In this document: positions 202 to 47,048 of the stretch, in pieces
How positions within the stretch are numbered: the first letter of the stretch is position 1
Layout of the letters: every line of letters starts with the position of its first letter
Assembly (NCBI RefSeq): GCF_014138265.1
Contig: NZ_JACGXL010000001.1
Span: 628,525-692,524 of the forward strand
Source of the DNA: Dokdonella fugitiva
GTDB lineage: Bacteria; Pseudomonadota; Gammaproteobacteria; Xanthomonadales; Rhodanobacteraceae
Reading direction: 5' to 3'
Length of the DNA: 64,000 nucleotides
Notes under the pieces: generated by a model
Databases searched by the model: none
What the model saw: only the letters and a program-made list of their open reading frames with translations
Told to the model about the DNA's origin: nothing
Made by a program: the position numbers and the translations under genes

Positions 202-1536
202 ATGACACGCTGGGTTGCCGCATGCGTATTCGCCCTGTCGATCACCACGAACGCACGCGCGCTCGACGGCGACGCCGACCCGACCTTCGGCGACGGCGGC
301 CAGGTCGCGATCACGCGTCCGCTGGTCGGCGGCGGCAACGGCACCAAGCCGACCGGTGACCTGCTGCAGCGCGAAGACGGGCGCTACCTGTGGGCGGCGC
401 CGCTCGACGACGGCAGCGTCTGGGTCGGCCGCTCGCTGCGCAACGGTACGCCGGACGCGACGTTCGGCGGCCTCGGCGGTGGTCGCGTCACCCTGCCCGC
501 GTGCGGCGCCTCGCGCAACGTGCGGCTCGCCGATGACGGCGCGGGCGGCGTGGTGGTGTGGGCCGGGTCGTGCCTCGTGCGGCTCGACGGCGACGGTTCC
601 GTCGTCGTCGGGTTCGGTGGCGGCGCCGACCTTCCGCCCGCGGGGTTCGACGCGATGGGTTTCGCGCGCGACGCGCAAGGGCGTTACGTGCTCGCCGGTG
701 AAGCCGGTCCGCTGGAATTGCGCGTGCACCGTTTCACTGCCGACGGCGTCGCCGACGAAGCGTTCGGTACGCACGGCGGCACCGTCGTCGTCGTGCCGAC
801 GACGAACGGGTTCGCCGATCTCTACGCGCTCGCCGTGCGCGCCGACGGCCGCATCCTCGTCGGTGGCGATCGCGGCAACACGCACGGGCCGAACCTCGTC
901 GTCGTGCAGCTGAACGAGGACGGCACGCCGGACCCGTCGTGGGACGGCGACGGCGTCGTCGATCTCGAGCCACCGCAGGGCTACGATCGCCTCATCGCGA
1001 CCGCGCTCGCGCTCGACGAGGACGGCAGCCTCGTCGTCTCGGGCATGAGCAGCGACGGTGGCGTGAGCTGCTGCCTCATGCTCGCGCGTTTCGACGCGAG
1101 CGGGCAGATCGTGCCGTCGTTCGGCCTGCGCATCTTCCGGCTCAGCACGCAGCCGTCGCTGTTCGGCTTCTTCGAACAGCGCGACGGCGTCGTGCTGCTG
1201 CCGAACCGGCGCATCGTGATGGGCACGATCTCGTTCCCGTTCGGCGCGCCGTTCACGCACCGCACGCAGTACACCCTCGTGCGCACGTTCGCCGACGGCA
1301 GCATCGACGCGAGCTTCGGCCACGACGGCTGGAACAGCTACACGATCGCCGATCCGACGAACACGGGCCAGACCGGCGACTACGTGCAGATGCACGCGAT
1401 CGCCTACGACCGCATCGACGACAGCCTGCTCATGCTCGGGCGCACGTTCTTCGAGGACGACTCGACCGGCGACGACTACGTCACCTTCGTGCGCGCGCGT
1501 TTCGATCTCGTGTTCGCCGACGCGTTCGACCGGTAG
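202..1536 (+). CDS. Secreted delta-60 repeat (DUF5122) protein with a C-terminal FADAF tail
   Basis: The start at 202 is chosen because GGGAGGAG lies a few bases upstream and the product then begins with a clean Sec signal peptide (MTRWVAACVFALSITTNARA, cut near residue 20). The 444-residue mature chain is built from delta-60 units: a DPTFGDGG-type turn recurs as ATFGGLGG, EAFGTHGG, DPSWDGDG and ASFGHDG, each followed by strands of the DGRILVGG type. Such repeats are thought to fold as a beta-propeller; no enzymatic residues are evident. The chain ends LVFADAFDR, a variant of the C-terminal tail seen on three other exported proteins in this window. Its function is unknown; a surface or secreted structural role is inferred. 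Confidence 0.85.
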   Translation: MTRWVAACVFALSITTNARALDGDADPTFGDGGQVAITRPLVGGGNGTKPTGDLLQREDGRYLWAAPLDDGSVWVGRSLRNGTPDATFGGLGGGRVTLPACGASRNVRLADDGAGGVVVWAGSCLVRLDGDGSVVVGFGGGADLPPAGFDAMGFARDAQGRYVLAGEAGPLELRVHRFTADGVADEAFGTHGGTVVVVPTTNGFADLYALAVRADGRILVGGDRGNTHGPNLVVVQLNEDGTPDPSWDGDGVVDLEPPQGYDRLIATALALDEDGSLVVSGMSSDGGVSCCLMLARFDASGQIVPSFGLRIFRLSTQPSLFGFFEQRDGVVLLPNRRIVMGTISFPFGAPFTHRTQYTLVRTFADGSIDASFGHDGWNSYTIADPTNTGQTGDYVQMHAIAYDRIDDSLLMLGRTFFEDDSTGDDYVTFVRARFDLVFADAFDR

Positions 1537-1576
1537 GCAAGGCCTCGAAGCCATCCCTCAGCGTCCCGGTGTTTCC

Positions 1577-1706
1577 TTCTCTCGCTTGCGGGAGAAGGTG
1601 CCGGAGGCGGATGAGGGAAAGCGGGCGTCAACGAGCATCGTGGCGTCGACACGCCCTACCCCTCACCCGCGCCTGCGGCGCGACCTCTCCCGCGAGCGGG
1701 AGAGGT
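1577..1706. repeat. Paired inverted CCCTCA/CTCTCCCGC repeats
   Basis: Two copies of a roughly 41-47 bp unit face each other between convergent genes. Copy one (1577-1617) reads, on the minus strand, CCCTCATCCG then TTCTCCCGCAAGCGAGAGAA. Copy two (1659-1706) reads, on the plus strand, CCCTCACCCG then CTCTCCCGCGAGCGGGAGAG. Each copy also contains its own small hairpin (CTCCCGC/GCGGGAG). A third, partial copy is at 17031-17069. No gene is seen in 1537-1795. The structure may act as a bidirectional transcription end, but there is no clear T tract. Confidence 0.65.
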
Positions 1707-1795
1707 ATGTGCGCGAGCTCGACGCGCGAGGCCGGAGCGGCGACGGGGGTGTGCACCGCTCCGGCCTGCGCCCCCTGATCGTCAGGCGGTTGCCG

Positions 1796-3952
1796 TCAGC
1801 GCATCGCGGGCTCGAAGCCGTCGGCGAAGATGCGCTGCTGCGGCTGCTCGCCGTACGCGGGATCGCTCGTGCTCGGTGCGCCGGTCTCGACGTGGCCGGC
1901 GAGGCGGCGTTCGAACCACTTGTCGTGGTCGGACGTGAGCACGAAGTCGTACCAGTGCGCGCTCGCGCCGAGCGGCCACGGCACGTCGATGGTCTGGCCG
2001 CCGTCGAGGGCGATCGCCTGCGGCGCACCGTCGGCGTAACGCAGCGCGCGCAGGGTGAGCACGCACGAACTCGCCCCGTGGTTGGTGATGTGCAGGACGA
2101 GGCCGTCGGACGGTGCGTCGTAGGACAGTGCGATCTCCGGGCTTGCCGGGCCGCTGGCCACGGCCGCGTCGAAGTCGCCCGCGAACGCACGCAGGAAACC
2201 GTTCGGGCCGTACACCGACAGCGAGTAGATGCCGTCGGTGACCGCGTCGACGCTCCAGTAGTCCGACAGCGTCGTGCCCGCGGCGAGCGTGTACGTCCAC
2301 GGACCGTCGGAACGATTGCCCGAGTAGACGTGGAACGACGCACCCGCGGCGCCGGTGTTGGCGAAGTCGAGCCAGTAGCGGCCGTCGCCGCTGCCGACGC
2401 GGCCGGCGACGTCGAACGCGTACGGCAGCGGTCGCGCCGGACGCACGCCGGGCTCCTGCACGGGCATGCGTGGATGCGCGGGCGGCGTCGGCACGTAGTC
2501 GGGATGGCGGATGTTGTCGGGCGGCTCGTAGCCGTCGGTCGACGGCAGCGCGGGCACGCTGTCGTTCGGCGTGGCGAAATTGAACGCGGACGTGAGGTCG
2601 CCGCAGACCGCGCGGCGCCACGGCGTGATGTTCGACTCGACCAGCGCCGGATTGCCGCCGGCGAAACGCTGCTCGATGAAGCGGATCAGCGAGGTGTGGT
2701 CGAACACTTCCGAACAGACCCAGCCGCCGCGCGTCCACGGCGAGACGATGATCATCGGCACGCGATTGCCGAGCCCGTACGGGTTGGCCGTGTAGTTGCC
2801 GGCGCCGGCGAAGAACTCGTCGCGCGTGTCGACCGTCGACGCGCCGACGCTGCTCGACCACGGCGCGTACGGCGGCGGCACGTGGTCGAAGAAGCCGTCG
2901 TTCTCGTCGTAGGTGATGAACAACGCGGTCTTGCTCCAGAGCTCCGGGTTGGAGGTGAGGATGTCGAGCACCTGCGCGACGTACCAGGCGCCGAAGTTGG
3001 CGGGCCAGTTGGAATGTTCGGAGAACGCTTCCGGCGCGGCGATCCACGACACCTGCGGCAAGGTGCCGTTGGCGACGTCGGCGCGCAGCACGTCGAAGTA
3101 GTCGCCGCCGTTCTTCACGTCGGTGCCGGTGCGCGCCTTGTCGTACAGCGCGCTGCCGGGCGACGCGTTGCGGTACTGGTCGAAGTACAGCAGCGAGTTG
3201 TCGCCGTAGTTGCCGATGTACGGATCGCTGGTCCAGCCCCAGCTGCCGGCGGCGTCGAGGCCGTCGCCGACGTCCTGGTAGATCTTCCAGGAGATGCCCG
3301 CGCTTTCGAGCCGCTCCGGATACGTCGTCCAGCCGTAGCCGAGTTCGGAATTGTCGACCACCGGGCCGCCGCCGTTGCCGTCGTTGCCGACCCAGCCGGT
3401 CCACAGGTGGTAGCGGTTCGGATCGGTCGCGCCCATCAGCGAGCAGTGGTACGCGTCGCACACGGTGAAGGCGTCGGCGAGCGCGTAGTGGAACGGGATG
3501 TCCTCGCGCGTGAAGTACGCCATCGTCGTCGTGCCCTTGTTCGGCACCCACGCGTCGAAGCGGCCGCGGTTCCACGCGCCGTGCGCGTCGGGCCAGTTGT
3601 GCGGCGTGCCTTCCATGTACTGCAGGCCGAGGTCGCCCGCGTGCGGGCGGAACGGCATCACGTGGCCGGTGCCGTTCGGCTGCATCCACACCGGGTTGCC
3701 GCCCGGCAGGCTGATCGGGCGCGGATCGCCGAAGCCGCGTACGCCGCGCAAGGTGCCGAAGTAGTGGTCGAACGACCGGTTCTCCTGCATGAGGATCACG
3801 ATGTGTTCGATGTCCTGGATCGTGCCGGTGCGGTTGTTCGCGGGCAGCGCGAGCGCCTTGCGGATCGCGGGCGGCAGCAGGCTCGCGGCAGCGGCCGCGC
3901 CGAGTGATCCGGCGGCGAAGCGCAGGAAATCGCGACGATGGTTCGACGTCAT
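1796..3952 (-). CDS. Tat-exported phosphocholine-type phospholipase C
   Basis: Hydrolyses phosphatidylcholine or related phospholipids outside the cytoplasm (family knowledge). The start at 3952 gives a textbook twin-arginine signal, MTSNHRRDFLRF followed by an Ala-rich segment ending near ALA; an upstream in-frame start would only extend it. The phosphoesterase-family catalytic block is visible as HIVILMQENRSFDHYFGTL at about residues 51-69. The remainder matches the bacterial phospholipase C architecture: a phosphoesterase domain of about 480 residues, then two C-terminal beta domains (DUF756-like). Total length of 718 residues is normal for the family. The final residues QRIFADGFEPAMR lie beyond the last DUF756-like domain and match the shared tail. 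Substrate choice (choline versus other head groups) cannot be decided here. Confidence 0.88.
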   Translation of the reverse strand: MTSNHRRDFLRFAAGSLGAAAAASLLPPAIRKALALPANNRTGTIQDIEHIVILMQENRSFDHYFGTLRGVRGFGDPRPISLPGGNPVWMQPNGTGHVMPFRPHAGDLGLQYMEGTPHNWPDAHGAWNRGRFDAWVPNKGTTTMAYFTREDIPFHYALADAFTVCDAYHCSLMGATDPNRYHLWTGWVGNDGNGGGPVVDNSELGYGWTTYPERLESAGISWKIYQDVGDGLDAAGSWGWTSDPYIGNYGDNSLLYFDQYRNASPGSALYDKARTGTDVKNGGDYFDVLRADVANGTLPQVSWIAAPEAFSEHSNWPANFGAWYVAQVLDILTSNPELWSKTALFITYDENDGFFDHVPPPYAPWSSSVGASTVDTRDEFFAGAGNYTANPYGLGNRVPMIIVSPWTRGGWVCSEVFDHTSLIRFIEQRFAGGNPALVESNITPWRRAVCGDLTSAFNFATPNDSVPALPSTDGYEPPDNIRHPDYVPTPPAHPRMPVQEPGVRPARPLPYAFDVAGRVGSGDGRYWLDFANTGAAGASFHVYSGNRSDGPWTYTLAAGTTLSDYWSVDAVTDGIYSLSVYGPNGFLRAFAGDFDAAVASGPASPEIALSYDAPSDGLVLHITNHGASSCVLTLRALRYADGAPQAIALDGGQTIDVPWPLGASAHWYDFVLTSDHDKWFERRLAGHVETGAPSTSDPAYGEQPQQRIFADGFEPAMR

Positions 3953-4163
3953 GGTGCAGGGGTCCGTGTCGAGTCCCCGCAGCAGCACGCCACGGCGCGC
4001 GGGACGCGCGCCGGTCGGCGTACGAGCATGAAGGCTGCGCGCTGCGGGCCGCTGCGAGCCGCGCGCAGTGTCGCGAGGTTCGATGACGTCGCGATGGAGT
4101 GCGCGTTACGTTCCGCGCACCATCGCGTGACAGCGTGACGTGGCGCACGTCACGCGATGCGCG

Positions 4164-4946
4164 TCACGCCTCGTCGAGGCACGCCTGCAGCAACGCGCGG
4201 ATCAGCGCCTGCGTCGGCGCCGCGCGTTCGGGCGCATAGTCGAACGTGTCTTCGTCCATGTAGTTGAGCTGGGCGAGTTCGAGCTGGATCGCCTCGACGC
4301 CCTCTTCCGGCCGCCCGTAGTGGCGCGTGATGTAGCCGCCCTTGAAACGGCCGTTGACGACGTGCGAGTAGCGCGACTGCGCGCCGAGGATCGTCGCCAG
4401 GCGCGCCTGCAGCGCCGGCGTGCAACTCGCGCCGGCCGAGGTGCCGAGGTTGAAATCCGGCAGGCGACCGTCGAACAGGAACGGCACGACGCTGCGGATC
4501 GAATGGCCTTCCCACAGCACGACGCGCCCGTGCGCATCGCGCACGCGCGCGATCTCCGCGGCGAGCGCGTCGTGGTACGGCTGCCAGTACGTCTCGACGC
4601 GGCGCGCGATCTCGCTGCGATGCGGCTCCTCGCCGGCCTGGTACACGGGCTCGCCGCTGAACTGCACGATCGGGCACAGGCCCGTGGTGTTCTGCCCCGG
4701 ATAGAGCGAAGCATCGTCGGACGGGCGGTTGAGGTCGACGACGTAGCGCGAGTGGTTCGGCACGATCATCGACGCGCCCATCTCGAGCGCGAACGCGTAC
4801 AGGCGCGAGACGTGCCAGTCGGTATCGGGCACGCGTCGCGCCGAAGGCATGAAGCGCTGCGCGAGGTCGGCCGGAACGAAGCTGCCGTCGTGCGGCAGGC
4901 TCACGATCAGCGGCGTGGTGCCGCGATGCAGGCTGTAGATGTCCAT
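4164..4946 (-). CDS. hutG: N-formylglutamate deformylase (amidohydrolase)
   Basis: Hydrolyses N-formyl-L-glutamate to glutamate and formate, the last step of one histidine degradation route. The 260-residue length is typical. Family blocks are visible: LIVSLPHDGSFVP near the N terminus, VPDTDWHV, VPNHSRYVVDLNR, VVLWEGHSIRSVVP and GRFKGGYITRHYG. The conserved His, Asp, Glu and Arg residues expected for this metal-dependent fold are therefore present. No other hut genes are nearby, so the rest of the pathway must be encoded elsewhere, or the enzyme may serve a general formyl-amino-acid role. Confidence 0.85.
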   Translation of the reverse strand: MDIYSLHRGTTPLIVSLPHDGSFVPADLAQRFMPSARRVPDTDWHVSRLYAFALEMGASMIVPNHSRYVVDLNRPSDDASLYPGQNTTGLCPIVQFSGEPVYQAGEEPHRSEIARRVETYWQPYHDALAAEIARVRDAHGRVVLWEGHSIRSVVPFLFDGRLPDFNLGTSAGASCTPALQARLATILGAQSRYSHVVNGRFKGGYITRHYGRPEEGVEAIQLELAQLNYMDEDTFDYAPERAAPTQALIRALLQACLDEA

Positions 4947-5055
4947 CCGCGCATTGTAGGCCAGCCAACCGCCGCCGCGACCACGCGACGGAAACGGGCC
5001 GCGGCGCGCGATCGTCGCCGTTCAGCGACGACCGCGCGCTTGCGCAAGGCGCGCT

Positions 5056-5367
5056 TCAGCGCTGCGGATTCGCGCTCACGCCCGACGACGACGCGCTGTC
5101 CTTGCGCATCTGCCACGCCTGGTCGCGCTTGGCCTCGTCCTCGTGCCACTTCTTCGTCTTCTCGCCCTGCTCGTGCTGGTGTTCGGCGAGCTGCTGGCTC
5201 ATGCAATCGGAGAAACCCGCCGAACCGTCGGCATGCCCGAGGCGCCGGCACAGCGACTCGTCCTGCGCTTGCTGGTCGGCCTTCGCCGCGTCCCTCTTCT
5301 GCTCCATCGTGCTGCAACCGGCGAGCAGGCTGGCGATGACGACACCGGTGAACAGGATCCGCTTCAT
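5056..5367 (-). CDS. Small lipoprotein, highly charged, function unknown
   Basis: A 103-residue product beginning MKRILFTGVVIASLLAGCS: a lipoprotein signal with lipobox LAGC, so the mature chain would start at the Cys. The start at 5367 is supported by GGGAGAGTT just upstream. The mature part is hydrophilic and rich in Lys, Glu and Gln (EQKRDAAKADQQAQDESLC, then EHQHEQGEKTKKWHEDEAK), suggesting a short helix, with two further Cys residues (CRRLGH and DCMSQQ) that could pair in the periplasm. I do not recognise a family. It is encoded on the same strand as the downstream hutG, with 109 bases between them. Confidence 0.72.
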   Translation of the reverse strand: MKRILFTGVVIASLLAGCSTMEQKRDAAKADQQAQDESLCRRLGHADGSAGFSDCMSQQLAEHQHEQGEKTKKWHEDEAKRDQAWQMRKDSASSSGVSANPQR

Positions 5368-5493
5368 GGAACTCTCCCTGTGTGCATGGGGGCGTGGCGG
5401 GCGCGTGCTCGAATGCGCCGCGCCTAGGCCACGGCCCCATTCTGCACAGGGCACCTGTTGCAACGGTTGCTCATTGACGAAGACGTTCGTAGA

Positions 5494-6299
5494 TCAGAAG
5501 CGGAAGCGCGCGAACAGCGAAGGGCCGTCCAGATCGACGTCGAGGGCGGCGTCGTAGGACGAGCCGTCGCGCTTGACGTGGATGCGCGACACGCCGTACT
5601 CGGCACCGATGCCGACCGCGTGCCAGGGGAACCACTCGAGGCCGACGCGCGCGTCGTAGATGTGCCCCGACAGCGTGCCGCCGTTCTTGCGTACGCCGGA
5701 GGCGTCGAGGTAGACGCGCAGGTTCTGCGAGAACGCGTGCTTGTAGCCGAGCGTGACGAGCGGCGCGACCGTATCCTCGTCCCAGCGCTGGGTGGCCTGC
5801 ACCGTGACGTCGTCGACCGTGGCCGAACCGCTCACGCGCAGCTTCGCCTGATAGTAGGCCGCGCCGAGGCCGAGACCGAACACGTCGTCCTCGCCGCCGA
5901 ACCACCAGCGCCACGCCGCGCTGCCGGCGGAGAGGTCGAATTTGCCGGTCAGCGTGGAATGCAGGTCGTACGCCGTGCCCTCGTACGAGAACGGCTGGTC
6001 GAGCACGTGGCTGCTCGAGCGGCCGAACGCGTAGTAGTCGAACGTGAGCCCTGCGATTCCCAGAACACGAGATCCAGGCGCGCGCGGCCGAGCGTCTCGT
6101 GGCCCGATGCGAGATCGACGCGTCCGGTATCGATGTTGCCGGCGTCCGCACTCGCGCGCAGCGTGAAGTCGGCGTTGGTGAAATATCCGCCGAGCCAGAG
6201 ACTCGCGGGGTCGAGTGCGCGCGACTCGGCATGCGCAACGCAAGCCGCACAGGCTGCGAACGTCGCGGCGAACAGACGGGAGACAGGCGTATTCATCAT
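5494..6299 (-). pseudogene. Outer-membrane beta-barrel protein gene with a frameshift
   Basis: Two overlapping frames together form one protein. The first starts at 6299 (or 6296) after a CTGGAGGACG site and gives MMNTPVSRLFAATFAACAAC, a Sec signal, then GGYFTNADFTLRAS up to RLDLVF. The second frame resumes with GIAGLTFDYYAFGRSS and continues through amphipathic strands such as VFGLGLGAAYYQAKL to the final Phe (LDGPSLFARFRF), the usual end of an outer-membrane barrel. The switch lies near 6060: one extra base after GTGTTC would restore VFLGIAGLTFDYY. This is either a real one-base loss or an assembly error; the intact protein would be about 268 residues. The barrel's function is unknown. Confidence 0.75.
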
Positions 6300-6464
6300 C
6301 GTCCTCCAGGGTGCGGCGCCGTCGAACGCGTCGCGGACGACGGCGGCGTGGCATCGGGCACAGCGCAGGGTACGGACACGTGCGACTGCTGCGTGTCGGT
6401 GCGCGATTCTGCCGCAACGAACGACCGCGATGGCGTCCCGAGCGCCCGGTCGTTCGGGTGCGAT

Positions 6465-19457: not shown

Positions 19458-22340
19458 TCAATCGCCGTCGAAACCGTCGGTGAAGATCGCGCTCGGCGTC
19501 ACGCGCAGGTAGAACGTCGGCGTCGTGCCCTGCGTCTTGTTGTAGACGGCGAGGCCGAGGAAATCGGATCCGGAACCATCGAAACGGTAGTGGATCGCCT
19601 CCTGGCCACCGGCTCCGGCGGCATCGCCGGATGCGACGTACTGGCTTCGCCCCTGGGCCCACGTCGTCGAATCCGCACCGTTCGATCGGTAGAGCGCGAG
19701 ACCCATGTCGGCCGAACCGGCCCCGCTGTCCGGCACCAGCGTGATGCGCCGCTCGCTGTTCGCCTCGAAGCCCATGTCGGCCACGAACAGCGAGGTATTC
19801 GCATCCATCGAGTACGGGCCGTACAGCCCGCCGCTGCCCGACGAGTAGTAGGCGCCGTCCGCAGCGACGATCGAATAGTCGCCGCTGCCCGAATACGTCT
19901 TGACGCGGAAGAACTCGCGCTGGGTCGACGGCCAATGGTTGCCGTCGACCAGTATGTAGTCGACGGCGCCGCCACCGCCATATTGCGACAGCGCGAGCCG
20001 CGGGCGATTGAACGAATCGGTCGTGTTGACCGGATCGAGGAACCACGACGCACCGTACAGTTCGAGGTCGTAGTCCGCGCTCGCCGCGGGCCGCAACGAG
20101 ACGCCGCGCCAATACGGGATCCAGCCCGCGTATTCGCTGTCAGGGCGGATGTCGAAGAACGTGCCTTGTGCTTTCGGCGCGCCGTTGAGATGCCACCAGG
20201 TACCGCGCGACAGGAGGCTGCCGTCGAGGCGTGCGGCGGCGGCGAACGGAGTCGCGCTGCCGCTCCAGGTGTTGAACAGCGTGATCTTGAACTTGTAGGT
20301 ATCGGACGCCGGAGCAGTGAAGTCGACCAGTTCGAAATTGTTGTAGGAGCTGTTCGAGTTGGTGACGAACGTCGTGCCGTCGCTGCGGTACACGGTGAGA
20401 TCGAGGTCGGCCGGGATGTTGTCGTTGGAATAGGTCGAGCCGCTCAGCGTGACGTTGGACATCCAGTTGATCGCGAAGCGCACGCGCTGCCCTTCGTGCG
20501 CGTACACCTCGTAGGTCTTCGGGAAAGTCGACGCGTCGACGCCCTGGAACCACCACGGGCCGTTCTCGGTGGCGTAGATGGATGCAGTGCCATCGATCGT
20601 CGGCCGGTCGCCCGCCGCTCGCAACGCGCCGACCATCATCAACGCGCGCACCGCGACCGGCGAACCGGCGAGCTGGCTGTCCGCTTCCATGAGGTCGGCG
20701 GCGAGCCCGGAGGTCGCGGGTGCAGCGAAGCTCGTGCCCCACAGGCCGGGGCTGAGCGGCGAGGTGGAACTGGTCGTCTGCGCGAGCGAAACGATGTCGA
20801 CTGCGCCGGCGTCGACCTCGGGCTTGACGTGCGTGCCGCCGGCGCCATCGCCGATCGGCCAGCCGTTGGCCGAACAATCGTAGCGATCGTCGTCGCTCCA
20901 GCCGATCGTGTTGTGGTCGTTGTAGCCGCCGACGGTGAGCGTGTTGTAGCCGCGCCCCGGCGACTCGACGCCGTACACGGTCGTCGGCGGCGTCTGCCCG
21001 CAGTTGGGCGCGCCGTAGTTGCCGGCCGCGTGCACGTTGAGGCGGAACGAGTTGCGCGCGATGTAGTCGAGGCGGCGATCGAATGCGTTCAACGTGTTCG
21101 CCGCGACGTTCTTCGTGCCCCAGCTGTGGTTGAGCACCTGTGCGCGCGCCGCGCCCCAGTCGGTCGCCGCTTCGAGCGAGCCGCTCGTGTTGTAGTCGCC
21201 ATTCGCGCTGATCAGCGTGCTGCTCGACGCCATGCCGTGGTGCGTGCCGTGCGTGCTCGCGATGATGCCGCCGACCCAGGTGGTGTGGTCCGCGGTGGGC
21301 AGGCCCGTGTCGCGGCTCTGCGACACGGTCATGTACGGGTTGCTCGGGTAGATGCGGCCGCCTTCGACCACCGCGACCGTCACGCCGCCGCCGTCGTAGC
21401 CGACGGCGTTGATCGGCGTGATGTTGTCGGTCGGGCGTGCGATGTCGAGGCTCGGGCCACGTTCGCCGCCCGTGTCGTCGAGGATCGCGACGCCCGACCA
21501 ACGCGCGACCGACCACGCGGGACCCGGCGCGAGTTCGACGATGATCGACGGCACGATGTCGCTCGCGTAGATGACCTTCGCGCCACTCGCTTCGAGCCGT
21601 TGCAGCATGGCCGCGCGCGGCGCGGCGAGCGCGGCGCGCAGGTCGGCGATGCGGAACTGGTTGCCGGCCTCGACCGCAGCGACCGCGGCCGCGCGCTCCG
21701 CGCGTTCGGCCGCGAGACGCGCACCGTGCGCAGGATCATCGTCGGGCTTCGCCGGCTCGCGTTCCGGCACGATCGTGGGCACGATCGCCGGCGCCCCGGT
21801 CGCGCGCGGGATCGCGAACGCATCGTCGAGCGGCACCGCTTCGCGCTTGTCGCCATTCGCGACCGCCGCCGCCTCGCCGGCGGTGCCGCCGACCGCCGAC
21901 GGCACCTCTACGCCGCCGCTCGGGCCGCCCCCGTCGTCGGGCAGGTCGACCGCGTACCACAGGTCGACGACGACGCGATCGGTCGCCGCCGCCCCCTGCA
22001 TCCGCTCCAGCAACGCCGGGGTCATCGCACCGTAGGCCATGCGCCAGTTCGCACCGGCTTCGTCGCGCAGGCGGTTCGCATCGACCGGAGCGCCGTTGCT
22101 GAAGGTCTGCCCGACCGGCTCGCCGGTCGCGGCATCGATCGCCTTGACCGTGTGCAGCTCGCGTCCGTCGAGCAGCGTTTCGTCCGATGCGCTGACATGC
22201 AGCAGCCGCTCGGCCGCGACACCGAGTGCGCGCGCGAGCGTATCGGTGTCGCCGCCGGCGGTCGGCGTAACCGCGATCGACGGCGTGGAAAGGCCGAGCG
22301 TGACCGCGGTCGCGAGCAGGCTGAGTGGCAGGCGCTTCAT
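19458..22340 (-). CDS. Exported subtilase-like (S8) protein with an unusual triad and C-terminal tail
   Basis: 960 residues. The start at 22340 gives MKRLPLSLLATAVTLGLSTP, a Sec signal. A roughly 300-residue pro-region rich in Ala/Arg precedes the catalytic domain. There the Ser loop GLWGTSFAAPATSG (Ser537) and the oxyanion Asn in HAAGNYG are canonical, the His block reads ADHTTWVGGIIAS (His352) instead of HGTHVAGI, and the Asp block reads VTVAVVEGGR, placing Glu326 where subtilases have Asp. After the domain come beta-sandwich segments (YEVYAHEGQRVRFAINWMSN onwards) and the tail AIFTDGFDGD. Probably a secreted or surface protease, perhaps with altered activity. The many shadow frames antisense to it are not genes. 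Confidence 0.85.
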   Translation of the reverse strand: MKRLPLSLLATAVTLGLSTPSIAVTPTAGGDTDTLARALGVAAERLLHVSASDETLLDGRELHTVKAIDAATGEPVGQTFSNGAPVDANRLRDEAGANWRMAYGAMTPALLERMQGAAATDRVVVDLWYAVDLPDDGGGPSGGVEVPSAVGGTAGEAAAVANGDKREAVPLDDAFAIPRATGAPAIVPTIVPEREPAKPDDDPAHGARLAAERAERAAAVAAVEAGNQFRIADLRAALAAPRAAMLQRLEASGAKVIYASDIVPSIIVELAPGPAWSVARWSGVAILDDTGGERGPSLDIARPTDNITPINAVGYDGGGVTVAVVEGGRIYPSNPYMTVSQSRDTGLPTADHTTWVGGIIASTHGTHHGMASSSTLISANGDYNTSGSLEAATDWGAARAQVLNHSWGTKNVAANTLNAFDRRLDYIARNSFRLNVHAAGNYGAPNCGQTPPTTVYGVESPGRGYNTLTVGGYNDHNTIGWSDDDRYDCSANGWPIGDGAGGTHVKPEVDAGAVDIVSLAQTTSSTSPLSPGLWGTSFAAPATSGLAADLMEADSQLAGSPVAVRALMMVGALRAAGDRPTIDGTASIYATENGPWWFQGVDASTFPKTYEVYAHEGQRVRFAINWMSNVTLSGSTYSNDNIPADLDLTVYRSDGTTFVTNSNSSYNNFELVDFTAPASDTYKFKITLFNTWSGSATPFAAAARLDGSLLSRGTWWHLNGAPKAQGTFFDIRPDSEYAGWIPYWRGVSLRPAASADYDLELYGASWFLDPVNTTDSFNRPRLALSQYGGGGAVDYILVDGNHWPSTQREFFRVKTYSGSGDYSIVAADGAYYSSGSGGLYGPYSMDANTSLFVADMGFEANSERRITLVPDSGAGSADMGLALYRSNGADSTTWAQGRSQYVASGDAAGAGGQEAIHYRFDGSGSDFLGLAVYNKTQGTTPTFYLRVTPSAIFTDGFDGD

Positions 22341-22540
22341 GTGCAGGGTTCCTCCGGGTTCGCTGCGCCGGTGCGTTCGAGCGCCCGGCGCGGGCCGTGG
22401 CACGCCGGTCGACGTGCCATCCTTGCAAGGTTCTTACGGCGCGCCGCGCACGAATGCGCCACGGCATGCCGCATGCGCCCGGCGCGCGACGGTGGAACGC
22501 CCTTGCCGGCGGCCACGCACCGCCCAGGCGCGCGGACTGG

Positions 22541-33545: not shown

Positions 33546-35114
33546 GTGCATCCACTTCCCGCGATCCTGATCGACGGCCTGCGCGCCACCCTGTTCCGCC
33601 ATCCGCGCGTGTCGGCGACGACCGTCGGCGCCGGCATGTTCGTCGCCGTCGTCGTGGTCTACCTGTTCGCGTCGATCCTGCTCGAGATGGCCGGCACGTC
33701 GCCGCCGTGGATGCTGCTGCCCGGCGGCGTGCTCACCGTGCTCGGCGATTCGATGCTGACCCTGATCGCGGCGTGGCTGCTCGCCGTGCTCGCTGCGCGG
33801 CGCGAGGCGGTCTGGGGCATCGCGACCGTGCTGCTCGCGGCGACGGTCGCAGCCGCGGTCGTCGTGCACTGGCCGCTCGGTGAACTCGCCTCATACCTCG
33901 TGCTGCACGAGCACGCCGGGCTCGCGATCCTCGTCGAACTCGTCGCGCGCTGCTGGTGGTTCTTCGTGCTGCTCGTGTTCGCGCACTGGCTCGCGCCGCG
34001 CGGCCTCGGTCACGCGCTCGGCAGCGCCGTGCTCGCCTACGCGGTCAGTGCCGCGGCCTGGTGGTGGCTGCCGCAGTCCCCGCTGGTGCGCACGATGCCC
34101 GTCGTGCAGGCGACGGCGGAGCCGACGTCCGGCGACCAGGACGGCGATGCGAAGACGGCTACGGAGCAGGACGAAGCCGACGACGACGACGCGCCCGGTG
34201 CGAAGAGCGAATTCGACGCCGAAGCGGCGATGTACGCGCAACCGGCGCTGCTCGATGCCGCGCTCGCCAGGCTGAAGCCGCAGACGCCGGGCAAGGTCGA
34301 CCTCTACGTCGTCGCGTTCGCCGGCGACGCGCAGCAGGACGTGTTCCGCAACGAAGCCGAATACGTCGAGACGCTGTTCGCGCAGCGCTTCGGCGCGGCC
34401 GGACGCACGGTCGTGCTCGAGAACAACGCGGCGACCGTGACGACGCGCCCGCTCGCGAGCTGGACCAACCTGCAGCGCACGCTCGCGACGATCGCGCGCA
34501 CGATGGATCCGGCCGAGGACGTGCTCCTGCTCTACTTCACCACGCACGGCTCCGACGACCACCAGTTGCTGGTCGACCTCGACCCGCTGCCGCTCAACCA
34601 GATCGGCCCGGACGACATCGCCGACGCGCTGAAGACGACGCCGGCGATGCGCTGGAAGGTCATCGTCGTCAATGCCTGCTACTCGGGCGGCTTCGTCGAC
34701 GCGCTGCGCGACGATTCGACCATGGTGATGACGTCCGCGCGCGCCGATCGCACCTCGTTCGGTTGCGGCGCGGATTCCGACATCACGTATTTCGGCAAGG
34801 CGTTCCTCGCCGAGGCGCTCAACCGGACGACCTCGTTGCGCGAGGCGTTCGACCTCGCGCGCACCTCGGTCGATGCGTGGGAAACCGCCGACCAGAAGGA
34901 CGCGAAGCCCGACGCGAAGGGCGTTGCCGGCGTCGAACCGATCCAGCATTCCGAGCCGCAGATCGCGACGAGTGCGAGCATCGAGGCAAAGCTCGCGGCG
35001 TGGCGCCGCACGCTGCACGAGAGCGCGGCGGTACCGTTCGCTCCCGCAGGCGAGGCCATGTCGCGCGGAGCTTCACCGTCACCGGATGCTTCGACACGAA
35101 GCGGGAAAGGCTAG
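33546..35114 (+). CDS. Membrane-anchored C13 (legumain/caspase-like) cysteine peptidase
   Basis: 522 residues from GTG at 33546. The N-terminal 185 residues hold four or five membrane helices (VGAGMFVAVVVVYLFASILL, LTLIAAWLLAVLAA, GIATVLLAATVAAAVVVHW, WWFFVLLVFAHWLA). An acidic linker (DQDGDAKTATEQDEADDDDA) follows, then a clan CD peptidase domain: KVDLYVVAFAGDAQQDVFRN, the catalytic His in LLLYFTTHGSDDH (His334) and the catalytic Cys in VIVVNACYSGGF (Cys378). The C-terminal 80 residues look disordered. Peptidase C13 proteins of this kind are found in Xanthomonas relatives; substrates are unknown, and the domain's side of the membrane depends on the helix count. Confidence 0.85.
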   Translation: MHPLPAILIDGLRATLFRHPRVSATTVGAGMFVAVVVVYLFASILLEMAGTSPPWMLLPGGVLTVLGDSMLTLIAAWLLAVLAARREAVWGIATVLLAATVAAAVVVHWPLGELASYLVLHEHAGLAILVELVARCWWFFVLLVFAHWLAPRGLGHALGSAVLAYAVSAAAWWWLPQSPLVRTMPVVQATAEPTSGDQDGDAKTATEQDEADDDDAPGAKSEFDAEAAMYAQPALLDAALARLKPQTPGKVDLYVVAFAGDAQQDVFRNEAEYVETLFAQRFGAAGRTVVLENNAATVTTRPLASWTNLQRTLATIARTMDPAEDVLLLYFTTHGSDDHQLLVDLDPLPLNQIGPDDIADALKTTPAMRWKVIVVNACYSGGFVDALRDDSTMVMTSARADRTSFGCGADSDITYFGKAFLAEALNRTTSLREAFDLARTSVDAWETADQKDAKPDAKGVAGVEPIQHSEPQIATSASIEAKLAAWRRTLHESAAVPFAPAGEAMSRGASPSPDASTRSGKG

Positions 35115-36877: not shown

Positions 36878-36879
36878 GG

Positions 36880-38730: not shown

Positions 38731-38741
38731 CCGCGCCGCCC

Positions 38742-38879
38742 TCAGTCGCCGTCGAAGCCGTTGCGGAAGATCACGAGCGTATCGACGTCGCTGGCGAGCG
38801 GGCCCGCATTGACGGTGAAGTCCAGGGTCGTCTCGCCGCGCCGAATACCGGAAAGTGTCCGACCATGGCGGTCGCGCAT
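38742..38879 (-). pseudogene. Orphan 3' fragment of an exported-protein gene bearing the IFRNGFD tail
   Basis: An open frame of 45 codons ends [20 protein letters not shown] then IFRNGFDGD and stop. The last nine residues closely match the ends of the subtilase-like protein (IFTDGFDGD) and of two others in the window. No signal peptide or domain precedes it; upstream sequence in this frame is cut off within 150 bases by the aldehyde dehydrogenase promoter region. The best reading is the surviving 3' end of a deleted gene for a secreted protein. A short functional peptide is possible but less likely. Confidence 0.6.
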
Positions 38880-38977: not shown

Positions 38978-38983
38978 TATAAT
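38978..38983 (+). promoter_or_regulatory. -10 element (TATAAT) for the ALDH7 gene
   Basis: A perfect TATAAT in a GC-rich region, 54 bases before the ATG at 39032; no good -35. GGAG lies at 39023-39026. Confidence 0.5.
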
Positions 38984-39031
38984 CGCCGGTTTCACGCGCC
39001 CCGCCGCGTCCCCGCTTTTCCTGGAGTCTCC

Positions 39032-40564: not shown

Positions 40565-40696
40565 TCTCCGCGGGAATCCCCGGGGGCGCACCCGTGCGTC
40601 CCGGCAGGTGCTGCCGGCTTCCTGATAGGAACCCATGCCGGCAGCCGTATTGGACGTACGAAGGCGCGGCACTCGCCGCGTCGCCAGAGACGTCCG

Positions 40697-41191: not shown

Positions 41192-41286
41192 CGGAGCGAC
41201 CGCGCGCGGCGCGTTGAACCGCCGCGCGCGAGTGACTACTCTTGCGCACCGGCGCCGCACGCGCGCCGCATTCCGGTTTCCCGCGC

Positions 41287-41571
41287 ATGAACGCCACTCC
41301 TTCGCGTACGAGCACGACCGCGGTGCTCAGCCTCGTGTTCGGCATCGTCTGCTGGTTCGCGCTGCCGTTCATCGGCGCCGTCGCCGCGGTGATCTGCGGC
41401 CATCTCGCGCGCGGCGAGATCCGCCGCGCGCCGCCCGGCACGATCGAGGGCGACGGCATGGCGATCGCCGGGCTCGTGCTCGGCTGGGTCCATCTCGCGC
41501 TGTTCCTGCTCGCGTTCATGGCGATCATGCTGTTCTTCGGCGGCCTCGCGTTCTTCGCGCACTGGCATTGA
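41287..41571 (+). CDS. DUF4190-like small membrane protein
   Basis: 94 residues with two or three membrane helices ([40 protein letters not shown]) and the central loop [20 protein letters not shown], the conserved H-A-x-x-E-I-x-x pattern of DUF4190 proteins. Start at 41287 chosen because the preceding codons are hydrophilic and without a ribosome site. Function unknown. It ends 11 bases before pyrD and may be co-transcribed. Confidence 0.82.
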
Positions 41572-41582
41572 ACGGATCCGGC

Positions 41583-42614
41583 TTGTACGCACTCGCCCGC
41601 CCGTTCCTGTTCTGCCTCGACGCCGAACGCGCGCACGATCTCGGCCTCGCGGCGATCGAAGCCGCCTGGCGCACCGGCACGAATCCGCTGCTCGCGGCGA
41701 AGCCGCAGCCGCTGCCGGTCGATGCGTTCGGCCTGCGCTTCGACAACCCGGTCGGCCTCGCCGCCGGCCTCGACAAGAACGGCGCCCACGTCGATGCGCT
41801 CGCCGCGCTCGGGTTCGGCTACATCGAAGTCGGCACGACGACGCCGCGCGCGCAGGCCGGCAATCCGAAACCGCGCATGTTCCGGCTGCCCGAACACGAA
41901 GCGGTCATCAACCGCCTCGGCTTCAACAACGGCGGCGTAGACGCGCTCGTGCGCAACGTCGAGCGCGCACGCTACACGGGCGTGCTCGGCATCAACATCG
42001 GCAAGAACAAGGACACGCCGAACGAACGCGCGACCGACGACTACCTGCACTGCCTCGAACGCGTGTACGCGCGTGCGAGCTACGTCACCGTGAACATCTC
42101 CTCGCCGAACACGCAGGGCCTGCGCGACCTGCAGGAGGAGGAAACGCTCAAGCGCTTCATCGGCACCCTGCGCGACGCGCAGGAACGCCTCGGCGCGAAG
42201 CACGGCCGGCGCAAGCCGATGCTGCTGAAGATCGCGCCGGACCTCGCCGAGACGGAGCTCGACGCGATCGCCGACGTGCTGCGCGCGGCGCGCATCGACG
42301 GCGTCATCTGCACCAACACGACGATCGACCGCGCCGCGGTCGTCGGCCACCGCCATGCGGCCGAAGCAGGCGGCCTGTCCGGCGCGCCGCTGTTCGCACG
42401 CTCGACCGCGGTACTGCGCGGCATGCACGAGCGACTCGGCGACGCCGTGCCGCTGATCGGCGTCGGCGGCATCGTGCGCGGCGCGGACGCGGCCGCGAAG
42501 CTCGAAGCCGGCGCGACGCTCGTGCAGTTCTACAGCGGCATGGTCTACCGCGGGCCGGCGCTGATCGGCGAATGCGTCGAGGCGATCCGGCGCGGCCGGG
42601 GCGCCGGCGCATGA
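41583..42614 (+). CDS. pyrD: Dihydroorotate dehydrogenase (quinone)
   Basis: Membrane-associated FMN enzyme of pyrimidine synthesis that passes electrons to quinone. 343 residues from a TTG at 41583, chosen because [20 protein letters not shown] aligns with the usual MYxLxRPLLFxLDPERAH start of class 2 enzymes. Other blocks: [40 protein letters not shown], the catalytic loop [17 protein letters not shown] and the FMN phosphate site IGVGGIV with [10 protein letters not shown]. Overlaps murB by four bases (ATGA). Confidence 0.95.
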
Positions 42615-43666
42615 GCGGGCACCACGTCGGCGCGGCGATCGCCGAAGGCGACGGCTACACGATCGTCGAGAACGCCTCGCTGCTCGGCCGCAACACGTTC
42701 CGCGTCGCCGCGCGCGCAGGCATGCTCGTCGACGTGCGCAAGCCGGCCGCGCTCGGCGAACTGTTCGACTACGCCGCGCTGCGCACGCAGCCGCTGCTCG
42801 TGCTCGGCGAAGGCAGCAACATCCTGTTCACGCGCGACTGGCCCGGCGTGGTGCTGGCGATCGCGGCGCATGGCGTGCGCGTGCTCGACGACGGCGGCGA
42901 CCACGCGCGCGTGCGCGTCGAGGCCGGCGAACCCTGGAACGACTTCGTGCACTGGTCGCTCGCGCACGGCTACGTCGGCCTCGAGAACCTCGTGCTGATC
43001 CCGGGCACGGTCGGCGCCGCGCCGATCCAGAACATCGGTGCCTACGGCACCGAGGTGCGCGAGTTCATCGTCGCGGTCGAGGCCTGGGACCGGCACGCGC
43101 GGCAGCTCGCGCGCCTCGACAACGTCGCGTGCGCATTCGGCTATCGCGACTCGGTGTTCAAGCGCGAACGCGACCGCTACGTCGTCACCGCGGTCGAATT
43201 CGAACTCGCGCGCGAGCGGCCGCTGCGCCTCGACTACGCCGGCGTGCGCGAGGAACTCGCCGCGATGGGCGTCGACGAACCCCGCGCGCCGGCGGTGGCG
43301 GAAGCGATCGCACGCATCCGCACGCGCAAGCTCCCCAATCCGGCGCTGATCGGCAACGCCGGCAGCTTCTTCAAGAACCCGCTCGTCGATCCCGCACTGG
43401 CCGACGCGCTTGGGCAGGCGCATCCCGCACTCCCCGCGTGGCCCGCCGGCGCGCAGAGCAAGCTGTCCGCCGCCTGGCTGATCGAAACCTGCGGCTTCAA
43501 GGGGCTGCGTGAAGGCGACGCGGGCGTGTCCGACCGGCACGCGCTCGTGCTCGTCAACCACGGCCATGCCACCGGTGCCGAACTGTGGGCACTCGCCGAA
43601 CGCGTGCGCGCCGGCGTGCGCGAGCGCTTCGGCGTCGAACTCGAGGCGGAACCGCTGGTCGTCTGA
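42611..43666 (+). CDS. murB: UDP-N-acetylenolpyruvoylglucosamine reductase
   Basis: NADPH- and FAD-dependent reduction that yields UDP-MurNAc for peptidoglycan. 351 residues, matching the longer type I (E. coli-like) form. FAD site: [20 protein letters not shown], and [20 protein letters not shown]. The active-site Ser lies in [13 protein letters not shown], and the end of the protein includes [20 protein letters not shown]. Translationally coupled to pyrD, an unusual pairing of pyrimidine and wall synthesis that may simply reflect packing. Confidence 0.95.
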
Positions 43667-43774
43667 GGCGTGCCGTCCGACGGCCGCCGCCTCGAACCGC
43701 GCGCGCGATCACAACCTGCGCCGCCGCTTCCGGCACAATCGCGCGACTTCCTTCGCGCTTCCGGAGCCGGTTCC

Positions 43775-45616
43775 ATGGCCTCAGCCCCTGCGAGTGCCGC
43801 GTTCAATGCCGCCCGCCGTCGCCTGTTCGATGCGGTGTTCGCCGCGGTGGCACCACCGACCGATCCGCTGCTGTCGCGCCGCCGGCCGGGCCGCGACGGC
43901 CTCCTCGACGACCTCCCCGCGAGCCCCGAATCGCTCACCTCGCCGCCACCGGCGGTGCGCTGGCTCGTGCGCGCGACCTGTGGCTATTCGACCCTCGATC
44001 TCATCGCGTTCGACGCCCTCGGCAGCACCGACGACGCGCGCTGGCAGGCCTGGGTGGCGCGCCAGCTCGCGCCCGCCACGATCGACGACAGTGCCTGCAG
44101 CAGCCGCCTCGCGAGCGCCGGCTTCACCACGCTCGACAAGACGCCCGAGCAGCTGTGGGCGGCGCGCGAGGCGATCGGCAACAGCAACTACTACCAGCGC
44201 ATGCTGCCGATCGCCGAAACCGAGTGCGCGACGCTGATCCGCCAGCTCCACAGCCAGCGCCAGCTGTTCGAGGTGATGGCGTCGTTCTGGCACGACCATT
44301 TCAGCGTGTTCGGCTGGGACTACGACGGCGGCCCGCTGTTCCCGCCGTTCGACCGCGACGCGATCCGCCCGAACGTGTTCGGCAATTTCCGCACGATGCT
44401 GCAGGCGACCTGCGAATCGGCGGCGATGATGTACATGCTCGATCTCTACACGAGCTACTCGGGACACCCGAACGAGAACTACGCGCGCGAACTGATGGAA
44501 CTGCACACGCTCGGCGCGGAGAACTACGCGGGCATCGTCGACGATCCCGACGACGATCCTTCGCTGCCGACCTACATCGACTGGCAAGGCAAGATCCAGC
44601 GCCTGCAGTACGTCGACGACGACGTCTACGAAGCCGCGCGCGTGCTCACCGGCTGGACCATCTCGCACAGCACGTACGAAACCCGCAACGACCCGAACCC
44701 CGGCGCGTTCGAGTACGTGCAGGCGCTGCACGACGCCGGCGTCAAGCGCGTCCTGCACCGCAATTTCTCCGCCGGCGGCGGGCAGAACGACGGCACCTTG
44801 CTGTTCGACATGCTCGCGCAGCATCCGGGCACCGCGCATTTCATCGCCGGCAAGCTGTGCCGCCGCTTCATCGGCGACGTCGTTCCCGACTCGCTCGTGC
44901 AGGCCGCCGCCGACCTGTTCCACCAGCAGTGGCAGGCACCCGACCAGATCGCGCAGGTGGTCGCCTTCATCCTGCACTCGAACGAGTTCAAGACCGGGTG
45001 GGGCACGAAGATGAAGAGCCCCGCGCGCAGCGTCGTCAGCGCGCTGCGCGCGACGCTCGCGAACTTCACGCCGGTGCCGGACAACAGTTCCACCTACACG
45101 CCCACCGAAGAACTCATCGGCCGCCTGCAGGCGGCCGGCCAGCGCCTGTTCTACTGGCCGGCGCCGAACGGCTATCCCGACACGATCACCGCGTGGTCGA
45201 GCACGGGCGCTCTCGGCCTCACGCTGAAGCTGCTGCCGCGCCTGCTCGAGATGCACCAGACGGAAAGCTACAACAATGCCTACCCGTTCATCGTCGACGT
45301 GCAGGGACAGACGCTGGGCGCGTTCCCGAATGCGGCCGACCGCACCGCGTCGAACGTGATCGGATACTGGTGCGACCGCCTGCTCGGCTACCGGCCGCAA
45401 CCGACCTTCGGCGTCGCGCTCGACTTCTTCCGCCAGGAGGCCGCCGCGAGCGATCCGCTCGACCTCGTCACGGATTCCACCGACAACGGCCAGCCGCAGC
45501 ACGTCGGCGTCTGGCACCTGAACCCGCCGAACACGCTGTCCAAGCACTACACGATCGCGCGCCTGCGCGTCGCGATCGGCCTGCTGCTGTGCTCGCCCGA
45601 ATTCCTGCGCCGCTGA
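43775..45616 (+). CDS. DUF1800-domain protein
   Basis: 613 residues. Typical DUF1800 blocks: VMASFWHDHFSVFGWDYDGG, PNENYARELMELHTLGAEN and VYEAARVLTGWTISHS, then HFIAGKLCRRFIGDVVP and VAFILHSNEFKTGWGTKMKS. The start at 43775 has GGAG eight bases upstream. No clear signal peptide is visible, so if exported it may leave with its Tat-dependent partner encoded 13 bases downstream. DUF1800/DUF1501 pairs are common in proteobacteria and planctomycetes; their biochemical role is not known to me. Confidence 0.86.
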   Translation: MASAPASAAFNAARRRLFDAVFAAVAPPTDPLLSRRRPGRDGLLDDLPASPESLTSPPPAVRWLVRATCGYSTLDLIAFDALGSTDDARWQAWVARQLAPATIDDSACSSRLASAGFTTLDKTPEQLWAAREAIGNSNYYQRMLPIAETECATLIRQLHSQRQLFEVMASFWHDHFSVFGWDYDGGPLFPPFDRDAIRPNVFGNFRTMLQATCESAAMMYMLDLYTSYSGHPNENYARELMELHTLGAENYAGIVDDPDDDPSLPTYIDWQGKIQRLQYVDDDVYEAARVLTGWTISHSTYETRNDPNPGAFEYVQALHDAGVKRVLHRNFSAGGGQNDGTLLFDMLAQHPGTAHFIAGKLCRRFIGDVVPDSLVQAAADLFHQQWQAPDQIAQVVAFILHSNEFKTGWGTKMKSPARSVVSALRATLANFTPVPDNSSTYTPTEELIGRLQAAGQRLFYWPAPNGYPDTITAWSSTGALGLTLKLLPRLLEMHQTESYNNAYPFIVDVQGQTLGAFPNAADRTASNVIGYWCDRLLGYRPQPTFGVALDFFRQEAAASDPLDLVTDSTDNGQPQHVGVWHLNPPNTLSKHYTIARLRVAIGLLLCSPEFLRR

Positions 45617-45629
45617 GGGGACGATCGCC

Positions 45630-47048
45630 ATGAATGCATTCAATCGCCGCGATTTCCTCAAGGGATGCTGCGTCACCGCGCTCGCCGCCGGCACCGGCAG
45701 CCGCGCACGCGCATACTTCGCGCCGCCGCCGCTGCTCCCCGCGACGGCGACGGACGACACGCTCGTGGTCGTGTTCCTACGCGGCGCGATGGACGGCCTG
45801 AGCCTGCTGCCGCCGGGCTCGGCGAGCCCGTACCGCGCCGACTACGAAGCCTCGCGCACGAACACGCGCGTGCCGCTGTCGGGCACCGGCGCCGCGCTCG
45901 CGCTCGCCAACACGACCTGGGCGCTGCATCCGCGCGCGACCGGCCTGCGCGCGCTCTACCAAGCCGGCCACGCCGCGTTCGTGGTCGCCGCCGGCCAGGT
46001 GCAGCCGAACCCCGTCGTGCGCAGCCATTTCGAGGCGCAGTCCAACCTCGAGTTCGGCATCGGTGGCGGTGGCGGCAACGGTATCGGCTGGCTGACCCGC
46101 CACCTCGTCAGCGGTGGCCTGCCCGCGAACGTGCCGCTGCCGGCCGCATCGATGGGCAGCATCACCGCGAACAGCCTGCTCGGCAGCAGCGACGCGATCA
46201 CGATGAACAGCGGCTCGGACTTCCGCCTCGACACGTTCCACTGGTCGTGGCAGAACGACGACGCCGCACACGGCCTCGTCGGCGGGGTGAGCCGCATGAA
46301 CGCGCTGTGGGGCAGCAACGCGACGCTGCTCGAGCGCGCCGGCATGGAGACGCTCGATTCACTCGCCCTGCTGCGGCCGATCGACTTCAATCCCTACGAC
46401 GCGGCGAACAACCCCGACGGCTACCAGCCGACCGGCGGCGCGAACTACACGCTCGCCAACAACGGCGGCTTCGGCACGCAGCTGCGCAACGTCGCTCAGA
46501 TGATCAAGCTCAACCTCGGCCTGCGCGCGGTCACGATCGACCTCGGCAACTGGGACACGCACGTCGGCCAGGGCAATCCGACGCAGAGCTACGACTGGTT
46601 CGGCAACCAGGTCGAGAGCCTTTCGCAGGGGTTGTCCGCGTTCTACACCGATCTTTCGACCGCGGCGTCCGGCAACCTCATGCAACGCGTCAGCGTGATC
46701 GTGGTCAGCGAGTTCGGCCGGCGCGTGCTCGAGAACTCGGACGGCGGTACCGACCATGGTTACGGCAACGTGATCACCGTGCTCGGCGGTGCCGTCAACG
46801 GTGGACACGTCTACGGCACCTACCCTGGCCTCGCGAGTGGCGACCTGTACGAAGGCAACGACGTCGCAGTGACGACCGACTACCGCCAGGTGATCTCGGA
46901 AGCACTGATCCGGCGGATGGGCAATCCGAACATCTACTACGCGTTCCCCGGCTACTCCGGCTACGCGCCGCTCGGCATCTTCCAGGGTGCCGACCTGCCA
47001 CCGTCGGGATTCGACCAGATCTTCAAGAACGGATTCGAGGCTGCCTGA
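45630..47048 (+). CDS. Tat-exported DUF1501 protein with a C-terminal IFKNGFE tail
   Basis: 472 residues with a twin-arginine signal, MNAFNRRDFLKGCCVTALAA. The DUF1501 core shows TLVVVFLRGAMDGLSLLPPG, GIGGGGGNGIGWLTRHLVSG, LRAVTIDLGNWDTHVGQGNP and VIVVSEFGRRVLENSDGGTD, the last with the GTDHGYG motif of the alkaline-phosphatase-like superfamily. It ends SGFDQIFKNGFEAA, the shared tail. In operon with the DUF1800 gene. Confidence 0.88.
   Translation: MNAFNRRDFLKGCCVTALAAGTGSRARAYFAPPPLLPATATDDTLVVVFLRGAMDGLSLLPPGSASPYRADYEASRTNTRVPLSGTGAALALANTTWALHPRATGLRALYQAGHAAFVVAAGQVQPNPVVRSHFEAQSNLEFGIGGGGGNGIGWLTRHLVSGGLPANVPLPAASMGSITANSLLGSSDAITMNSGSDFRLDTFHWSWQNDDAAHGLVGGVSRMNALWGSNATLLERAGMETLDSLALLRPIDFNPYDAANNPDGYQPTGGANYTLANNGGFGTQLRNVAQMIKLNLGLRAVTIDLGNWDTHVGQGNPTQSYDWFGNQVESLSQGLSAFYTDLSTAASGNLMQRVSVIVVSEFGRRVLENSDGGTDHGYGNVITVLGGAVNGGHVYGTYPGLASGDLYEGNDVAVTTDYRQVISEALIRRMGNPNIYYAFPGYSGYAPLGIFQGADLPPSGFDQIFKNGFEAA

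Follow-up and report, generated by a model that had tools for sequence, protein, structure and literature searches.

A short motif, [IV]-F-x-[DN]-[GA]-F-[DE], recurs at the C-terminal ends of dissimilar exported proteins of Dokdonella fugitiva. The stretch of DNA in which it was noticed, hereafter the window, comprises 64,000 nucleotides (C1:628525-692524) of a 4.77-Mb assembly. We found that this tail is real, that it is a larger phenomenon than the window alone shows, and that it is co-distributed with a second type II secretion system (T2SS) encoded by the same genome, here called T2SS-A. Based on this co-distribution, the tail seems rather likely to be a short docking tag by which a dedicated machine, T2SS-A, recognises the proteins that it secretes from the cell.

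The tail in the window and in the whole genome

We scanned all six frames of the window for a loose form of the motif and obtained five hits, which lie one to four residues ahead of a stop codon; these are the five copies that the initial annotation had reported. Four of them close intact open reading frames (ORFs). A delta-60 repeat protein (ORF 28-1536, plus strand) ends in VFADAFDR, a variant with Val for Ile and Ala for Gly (1510..1536 with the stop codon); a phosphocholine-specific phospholipase C (PLC; ORF 1796-3988, minus strand) ends in IFADGFEPAMR (1796..1831); a subtilase-like protein with a PPC domain (ORF 19458-22403, minus strand) ends in IFTDGFDGD (19458..19487); and a Tat-type DUF1501 protein (ORF 45630-47048, plus strand) ends in IFKNGFEAA (47019..47048). 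The fifth copy, IFRNGFDGD (38742..38771, minus strand), ends an orphan ORF of 101 codons from stop to stop, in which a Pfam scan found no domain and which is probably a gene remnant. Domain scans assigned the four intact carriers to four different families, in agreement with the earlier statement that their folds are unrelated.

In the PLC, the match to the PC_PLC model stops at residue 712 of 730, which makes the tail an appendage to the enzyme. The DUF1501 protein matches a Tat model and, used as a query, retrieved 15 orthologue loci, five of them titled Dokdonella, the best being from D. fugitiva (90%). When the protein was aligned with 14 of the 15 fetched orthologues (L171 was left out), the tail residues D462, F465, G468 and F469 were invariant. 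The AlphaFold model of this protein was uninformative (mean pLDDT of 44.7).

In the whole genome, a degenerate DNA pattern encoding I-F-x-[DN]-G-F-[DE] gave 108 matches and the reversed pattern gave none, which excludes chance as the origin of the tail. Positions and codons were read in the 100 of these 108 copies that were listed. The stop codon follows within 17 residues in 91 of the 100 and within six residues in 84. Additionally, an Asp two residues upstream of the motif is conserved in 81 of the 91 tailed copies, which extends the motif to D-x-[ILV]-F-x-[DN]-G-F-[DE]-x(0-6). The 91 copies are encoded by 62 distinct DNA 21-mers, with all four Gly codons in use and no conservation of the bases past the stop codon, indicating that selection acts on the amino acids. 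This synonymous variation, the unconserved 3′ bases and the fact that AT-rich genomes encode the same residues rule out a DNA or RNA element in place of a peptide.

The initial annotation treated the tail as C-terminal, which holds for those 91 copies and fails for the other nine: the motif is followed by 29-54 residues in three of them and by 182-301 in five. The ninth copy is N-terminal; it belongs to a GH18 enzyme (L189, 1898-3067, minus strand), in which the motif comes directly after the signal peptide and not at the C-terminal end. Among seven loci read for doubling, six carry the motif twice at the C terminus, e.g., PDLIFSNGFESDVIFKDGFE followed by the stop codon, all of them in two AT-rich genomes of family f179; the seventh (G428, family f181) is not of the doubled kind. 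The internal, N-terminal and doubled copies favour a docking tag over a C-terminal cleavage signal.

The carriers are diverse. Among the 91 tailed proteins, some of which were scanned without their 5′ end, NCBIfam models identified 13 choice-of-anchor Q proteins, six delta-60 repeat proteins, four rhombosortase-dependent M36 proteins, three choice-of-anchor J proteins and three myxosortase-dependent M36 proteins, while Pfam identified beta-helices, propellers, FG-GAP repeats, S8 peptidases and others. Since the commonest NCBIfam family accounts for only 13 of the 91 carriers and the commonest Pfam family for 8, the tail is not part of one ordinary conserved domain. Relatives of several of these families in other organisms bear surface-anchor signals, as their model names indicate. 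When ten tails of 30 residues were compared with NCBIfam and Pfam, no tail model was found at E-values up to 10; two of the ten matched only the end of the choice_anch_Q model, under its cut-off. These results agree with the earlier view that the tail differs from PEP-CTERM and GlyGly-CTERM signals, and they set it apart from MYXO-CTERM signals as well, since the 84 copies ending zero to six residues past the motif leave no room for a hydrophobic helix followed by basic residues. No title or abstract opening among the literature matches listed was recognised as describing the motif.

Regarding export, signal-like N termini were present in 57 of the 65 tailed ORFs with their 5′ end in hand, as judged by a permissive heuristic. 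With one threshold for both sets, such an N terminus was present in 54 of 60 tailed ORFs (150 residues or longer) versus 26 of 43 untailed ORFs of the window, a control weakened by membrane proteins and by many alternative starts, which inflate the latter value.

Co-distribution with a second type II secretion system

Within the order, the tail has a patchy distribution. In a sample of 147 genomes of the family, 35 had 9-136 matches and the other 112 had 0-2, with no match in the reversed controls. The tail-rich genomes comprise all those sampled in the own genus (11/11) and in the genera g5 (10/10), g15 (8/8) and g17 (2/2), together with four of ten in g9. In a sample of 121 genomes of the order, genomes with at least seven matches occurred in nine of ten further families (all of f173-f182 but f177). 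Genomes of family f2 had zero or one match, except G496, with 27. The class was sampled with 274 genomes, mostly one or two per family; none of the 273 other than the own genome had more than three matches.

The T2SS-A locus of the own genome lies outside the window, at approximately 86.8-94.4 kb of contig C7, and contains GspC, GspD, GspE (in frame, as read from the sequence), a gene on the opposite strand and GspF. Its GspC, GspC-A, consists of a T2SSC domain and a PDZ_2 domain (27.4 bits, with a cut-off of 27), and a PDZ-like region is visible by eye in 36 aligned GspC-A rows from 35 genomes. The other system of this genome, T2SS-B, has what we read as an Xps-like gene order, in which K, an L-like component and D were checked by Pfam. 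In a tree of 64 GspD proteins, types A (27 rows) and B (37 rows) are split at 100/100, with long branches that include G471 and G024. The own GspD-A shares at least 42% identity with all further type-A rows except that of G471 (36%), and at most 32% with type B.

We searched for GspD in 80 genomes and classed the hits by score, with at least 545 bits as the type-A range and lower scores as the type-B range. The division of these genomes into 42 tail-rich and 38 tail-poor was based on counts of the strict, Ile-initial motif and was kept after variant tails turned up. In family f1, 21 of 22 tail-rich genomes had a full GspD in the type-A range, the remaining one, G079, giving a partial match of 337 bits, and 22 of 23 tail-poor genomes had GspD in the type-B range only. 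The eight tail-rich and seven tail-poor f1 genomes included in the tree fall where their scores place them. In the same 80 genomes, GspC (PF11356, over cut-off) was found in 41 of 42 tail-rich genomes versus 7 of 38 tail-poor genomes (Fisher p 2e-14, not corrected for kinship). With the prediction fixed beforehand, a hold-out set of 80 other genomes contained GspC in 27 of 30 genomes with at least three matches, in three of nine with one or two, and in four of 41 with none; for the contrast of 27/30 with 4/41, p was 3e-12. Thus, profiling for co-occurring secretion components identified T2SS-A, with its GspC, as the system that tracks the tail.

The joint absence of tail and T2SS-A recurs in several lineages: in most of f1, in most of f2 (G496 keeps both), in G425 and G493 of f178 (G517 keeps both) and in G435 of f179. 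In f2, 15 of the 18 genomes tested had no over-cut-off GspC and zero or one tail match, the others being the tail-bearing G496, G471 with a distant type and G488 with a marginal hit. Within genus g9, G008, G032 and G061 have neither tail nor T2SS-A, and G075, G088 and G100 keep both.

A comparison within one protein gave the same picture. Of the five PLCs read in T2SS-A genomes, three end in the motif, one has Ala for Gly and one is decayed; the ends are VFANGFD (G044), LFRDGFDGPLSA (G065), LFTDGFEQAA (G014), LFGDAFEAAAQAA (G036) and the decayed LFVGDFETV (G050). None of 11 other PLCs has the tail, namely those of ten genomes without GspC-A (G010, G008, G032, G021, G002, G504, G446, G020, G006 and G011) and that of G471, which has the distant type. 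The body of the enzyme persists, and its tail is missing, where T2SS-A is absent. These values derive from 29 matches, of which 25 loci were examined and 16 counted; no ORF was recovered for G091, G088, G013 or the second copies of G471 and G504, and further tail-free paralogues in G020, G021 and G002 are outside the count of 16.

Three of the seven tail-poor genomes with GspC among the first 80 have variant tails. G474 has 15 loose matches, 12 of them with His at the [DN] position; the six loci read were all C-terminal, five with His and one with Ser. Six proteins of G424 and five of G433 end in [LV]-F-x-[DN]-G-[FY]-E. Additionally, G427 and G491 have one L/V-type variant tail each, out of two and four loose matches, respectively. 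Changes at the [DN] position comprise His in most G474 tails (L290, L306, L310, L313 and L316) and Gly in two G517 tails (L307 and L314); such changes may be a sign that the tail and its local receptor co-evolve. Among 24 subtilase loci of five exception genomes, an ORF passed the catalytic-motif filter in ten, one of which (L324, G424) has a variant tail.

With respect to the gene neighbourhood, a comparison of 13 T2SS-A loci revealed no family beside gspCDEF that most tail-rich loci share and the tail-poor loci lack. ORFs of both strands were taken, and the many antisense ones were set aside, including a set overlapping gspC and gspD in five tail-rich loci only. In five loci, which include both tail-rich and tail-poor ones, gspCDEF is followed by FtsX-like genes. 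Near the own gspC-A (L198, G000:C7:79000-97000), a Ser/Thr protein kinase with TPRs (2884-5373, minus strand) stands beside an ECF sigma factor (PF07638; 5405-6007, minus strand). Relatives of both genes adjoin T2SS-A in G004 and G450, so that such a pair is present in three of seven tail-rich versus none of six tail-poor loci; it may regulate the system. The opposite-strand gene between gspE-A and gspF-A (L198, 12486-13922, minus strand) has a signal-like N terminus. A delta-60-like gene adjoining gspC-A (L198, 6091-8970, minus strand) ends in DDTIFRYGAE, which looks like a decayed tail.

A proposed docking tag and its alternatives

The model that we propose is as follows. Sec or Tat would carry the tailed proteins across the inner membrane, and they would then fold in the periplasm. 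There, the flexible tag would be recognised by T2SS-A, most likely at the PDZ domain of GspC, a protein with HR and PDZ domains, and/or at the N-domains of GspD, and the folded protein would be driven out through the GspD-A secretin. Direct recognition by T2SS-A, transport across the outer membrane by this system and the PDZ domain as receptor are parts of the model that we infer. The initial annotation had proposed a sorting, secretion or processing signal on unrelated exported proteins: a shared sorting or secretion signal is well supported, and the suggested processing partners are not. In a broader and more tentative form, to which we give somewhat less than an even chance, the tail would be the first general and transferable linear T2SS signal: a PDZ-type GspC would read the tag, T2SS-A would export any folded periplasmic protein that bears it, and the Xps-like T2SS-B would ignore it.

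Several observations weigh against the docking tag. All links between tail and T2SS-A are co-occurrences, and kinship makes the genomes non-independent samples, even though several separate lineages lack both tail and T2SS-A. Tailed genes are not grouped at T2SS-A, a clustering that we rejected on finding a single tailed ORF in 13 loci, and GspG-N of T2SS-A were not located, no dedicated search having been made. GspC occurs without strict tail matches in G025, G043, G056, G457 and G469, in G471 (distant) and in G488, whose hit is marginal (27.2 bits, partial); G427 also has GspC and no strict match, with its one variant tail. With a looser pattern, no C-terminal copy was seen in G025, G457, G469 or G471. 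Conversely, the tail-rich G079 (680 contigs) has only a weak GspC hit, adjoining a type-B secretin. Similar weak hits adjoin type-B secretins in G044, G004, G036 and G030 and are probably GspC of the Xps type. Additionally, G037 (85% complete, 770 contigs) has 29 matches and no GspC hit, and two f178 genomes, G473 with six matches and G501 with three, have none either; these last two are unexplained and rest on pattern counts.

Three of the genomes with GspC and no tail matches, G025, G043 and G056, form genus g26, and the GspD of G025 is on a branch separate from that of the remaining f1 GspD-A. This genus may show the machine without the tag.

The main rival, which we consider rather unlikely, is that the tail works after secretion: T2SS-A would export the proteins by other features, and the tail would hold them on the surface or in the matrix through a receptor, or would be joined there by an enzyme that travels with T2SS-A. 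A surface-attachment tag of this kind would yield the same distribution as a docking tag. Choice-of-anchor families and models of GlyGly-CTERM- or MYXO-CTERM-anchored proteins account for many of the carriers, and choice-of-anchor and CTERM-type proteins of other bacteria place their anchor at the same end; the doubled tails, in turn, suggest avidity. Species with GlyGly-CTERM in general also have a T2SS, as stated in an excerpt of PMC3237569. Nevertheless, the tail marks one subclass of T2SS, whereas none in particular was found for rhombosortase according to the same excerpt. Furthermore, no family other than gspCDEF tracked the tail among the 13 T2SS-A loci, which leaves a remote gene as a possible partner, and the kinase and sigma factor pair looks regulatory.

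Far less probable is that tail and T2SS-A are inherited clade markers without any functional link. Kinship does inflate all of our counts, and the tail-rich f1 genera share a history; however, the two are absent together repeatedly, in f1, f2, f178, f179 and g9, the PLC is present and tail-free in ten genomes without T2SS-A, and the C13 peptidase family shows no such pattern.

This family enters through the window, which encodes a membrane C13 peptidase (33546..35114, plus strand) that had been named as a speculative processing partner, together with a rhomboid. C13 peptidases (PF01650) occur in 128 of the 147 family genomes and in 25 of 26 genera, mostly tail-free; G030, which is 99% complete and has 37 tail matches, yielded none. 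An Asn/Asp-specific enzyme is also hard to reconcile with tails that have His, Gly or Ser at the [DN] position. The window enzyme was rejected as a dedicated partner on these grounds. The least credible alternative is a signal for C-terminal processing, in which a C13 legumain-like, rhomboid or other protease would cut or transpeptidate the tail: [DN]-G-F does resemble the recognition sites of plant asparaginyl ligases, but, beyond the failure of the C13 candidate, cleavage would destroy or misplace the N-terminal and internal copies, and the tail offers no membrane helix to a rhomboid-type enzyme.

Comparison with known systems

Substrate recognition by T2SSs is an open question, with no conserved signal identified as of 2025 and the second periplasmic region of GspC as the likely substrate dock (both from an excerpt of PMC11981180). 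With approximately 100 likely substrates, a matched machine and natural absence in relatives, recognition becomes testable here by deletion and transfer of the tail. If the docking tag is real, secretomes throughout the order could be predicted from sequence data, and biotechnology could make use of a portable secretion tag.

The closest parallel is the GlyGly-CTERM/rhombosortase system (TIGR03902), in which many unrelated exported proteins per genome likewise share one C-terminal tag in T2SS-bearing species, and four of the tailed proteins here match its rhombosortase-dependent M36 model. Nevertheless, GlyGly-CTERM has a tripartite build that includes a hydrophobic region and a positively charged end (PMC6219818), whereas the motif reported here is soluble and nine residues long; moreover, one T2SS subclass is marked here, and the excerpt of PMC3237569 records none for rhombosortase. 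The C-terminal domain of type IX secretion substrates is also a C-terminal signal that takes Sec substrates across the outer membrane; it is an immunoglobulin-like beta-sandwich served by a machine of Bacteroidota, in contrast to a short linear motif with a matched T2SS.

Among T2SSs, the Out system uses flexible exposed segments of Pel3 and PelI as recognition elements (excerpt of PMC7949064), a likeness to the flexible tag proposed here, and a title in the reference list of that paper states that the PDZ domain of OutC and the N-region of OutD set specificity. The Out signal is described in the excerpt as composite and protein-specific, unlike a single linear motif on approximately 100 proteins. 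Finally, the own T2SS-B resembles the Xps T2SS of Xanthomonas in gene order, whereas XpsC differs from GspC-A in that its second periplasmic region is a single helix without a PDZ fold, as reported in the excerpted part of PMC11981180.

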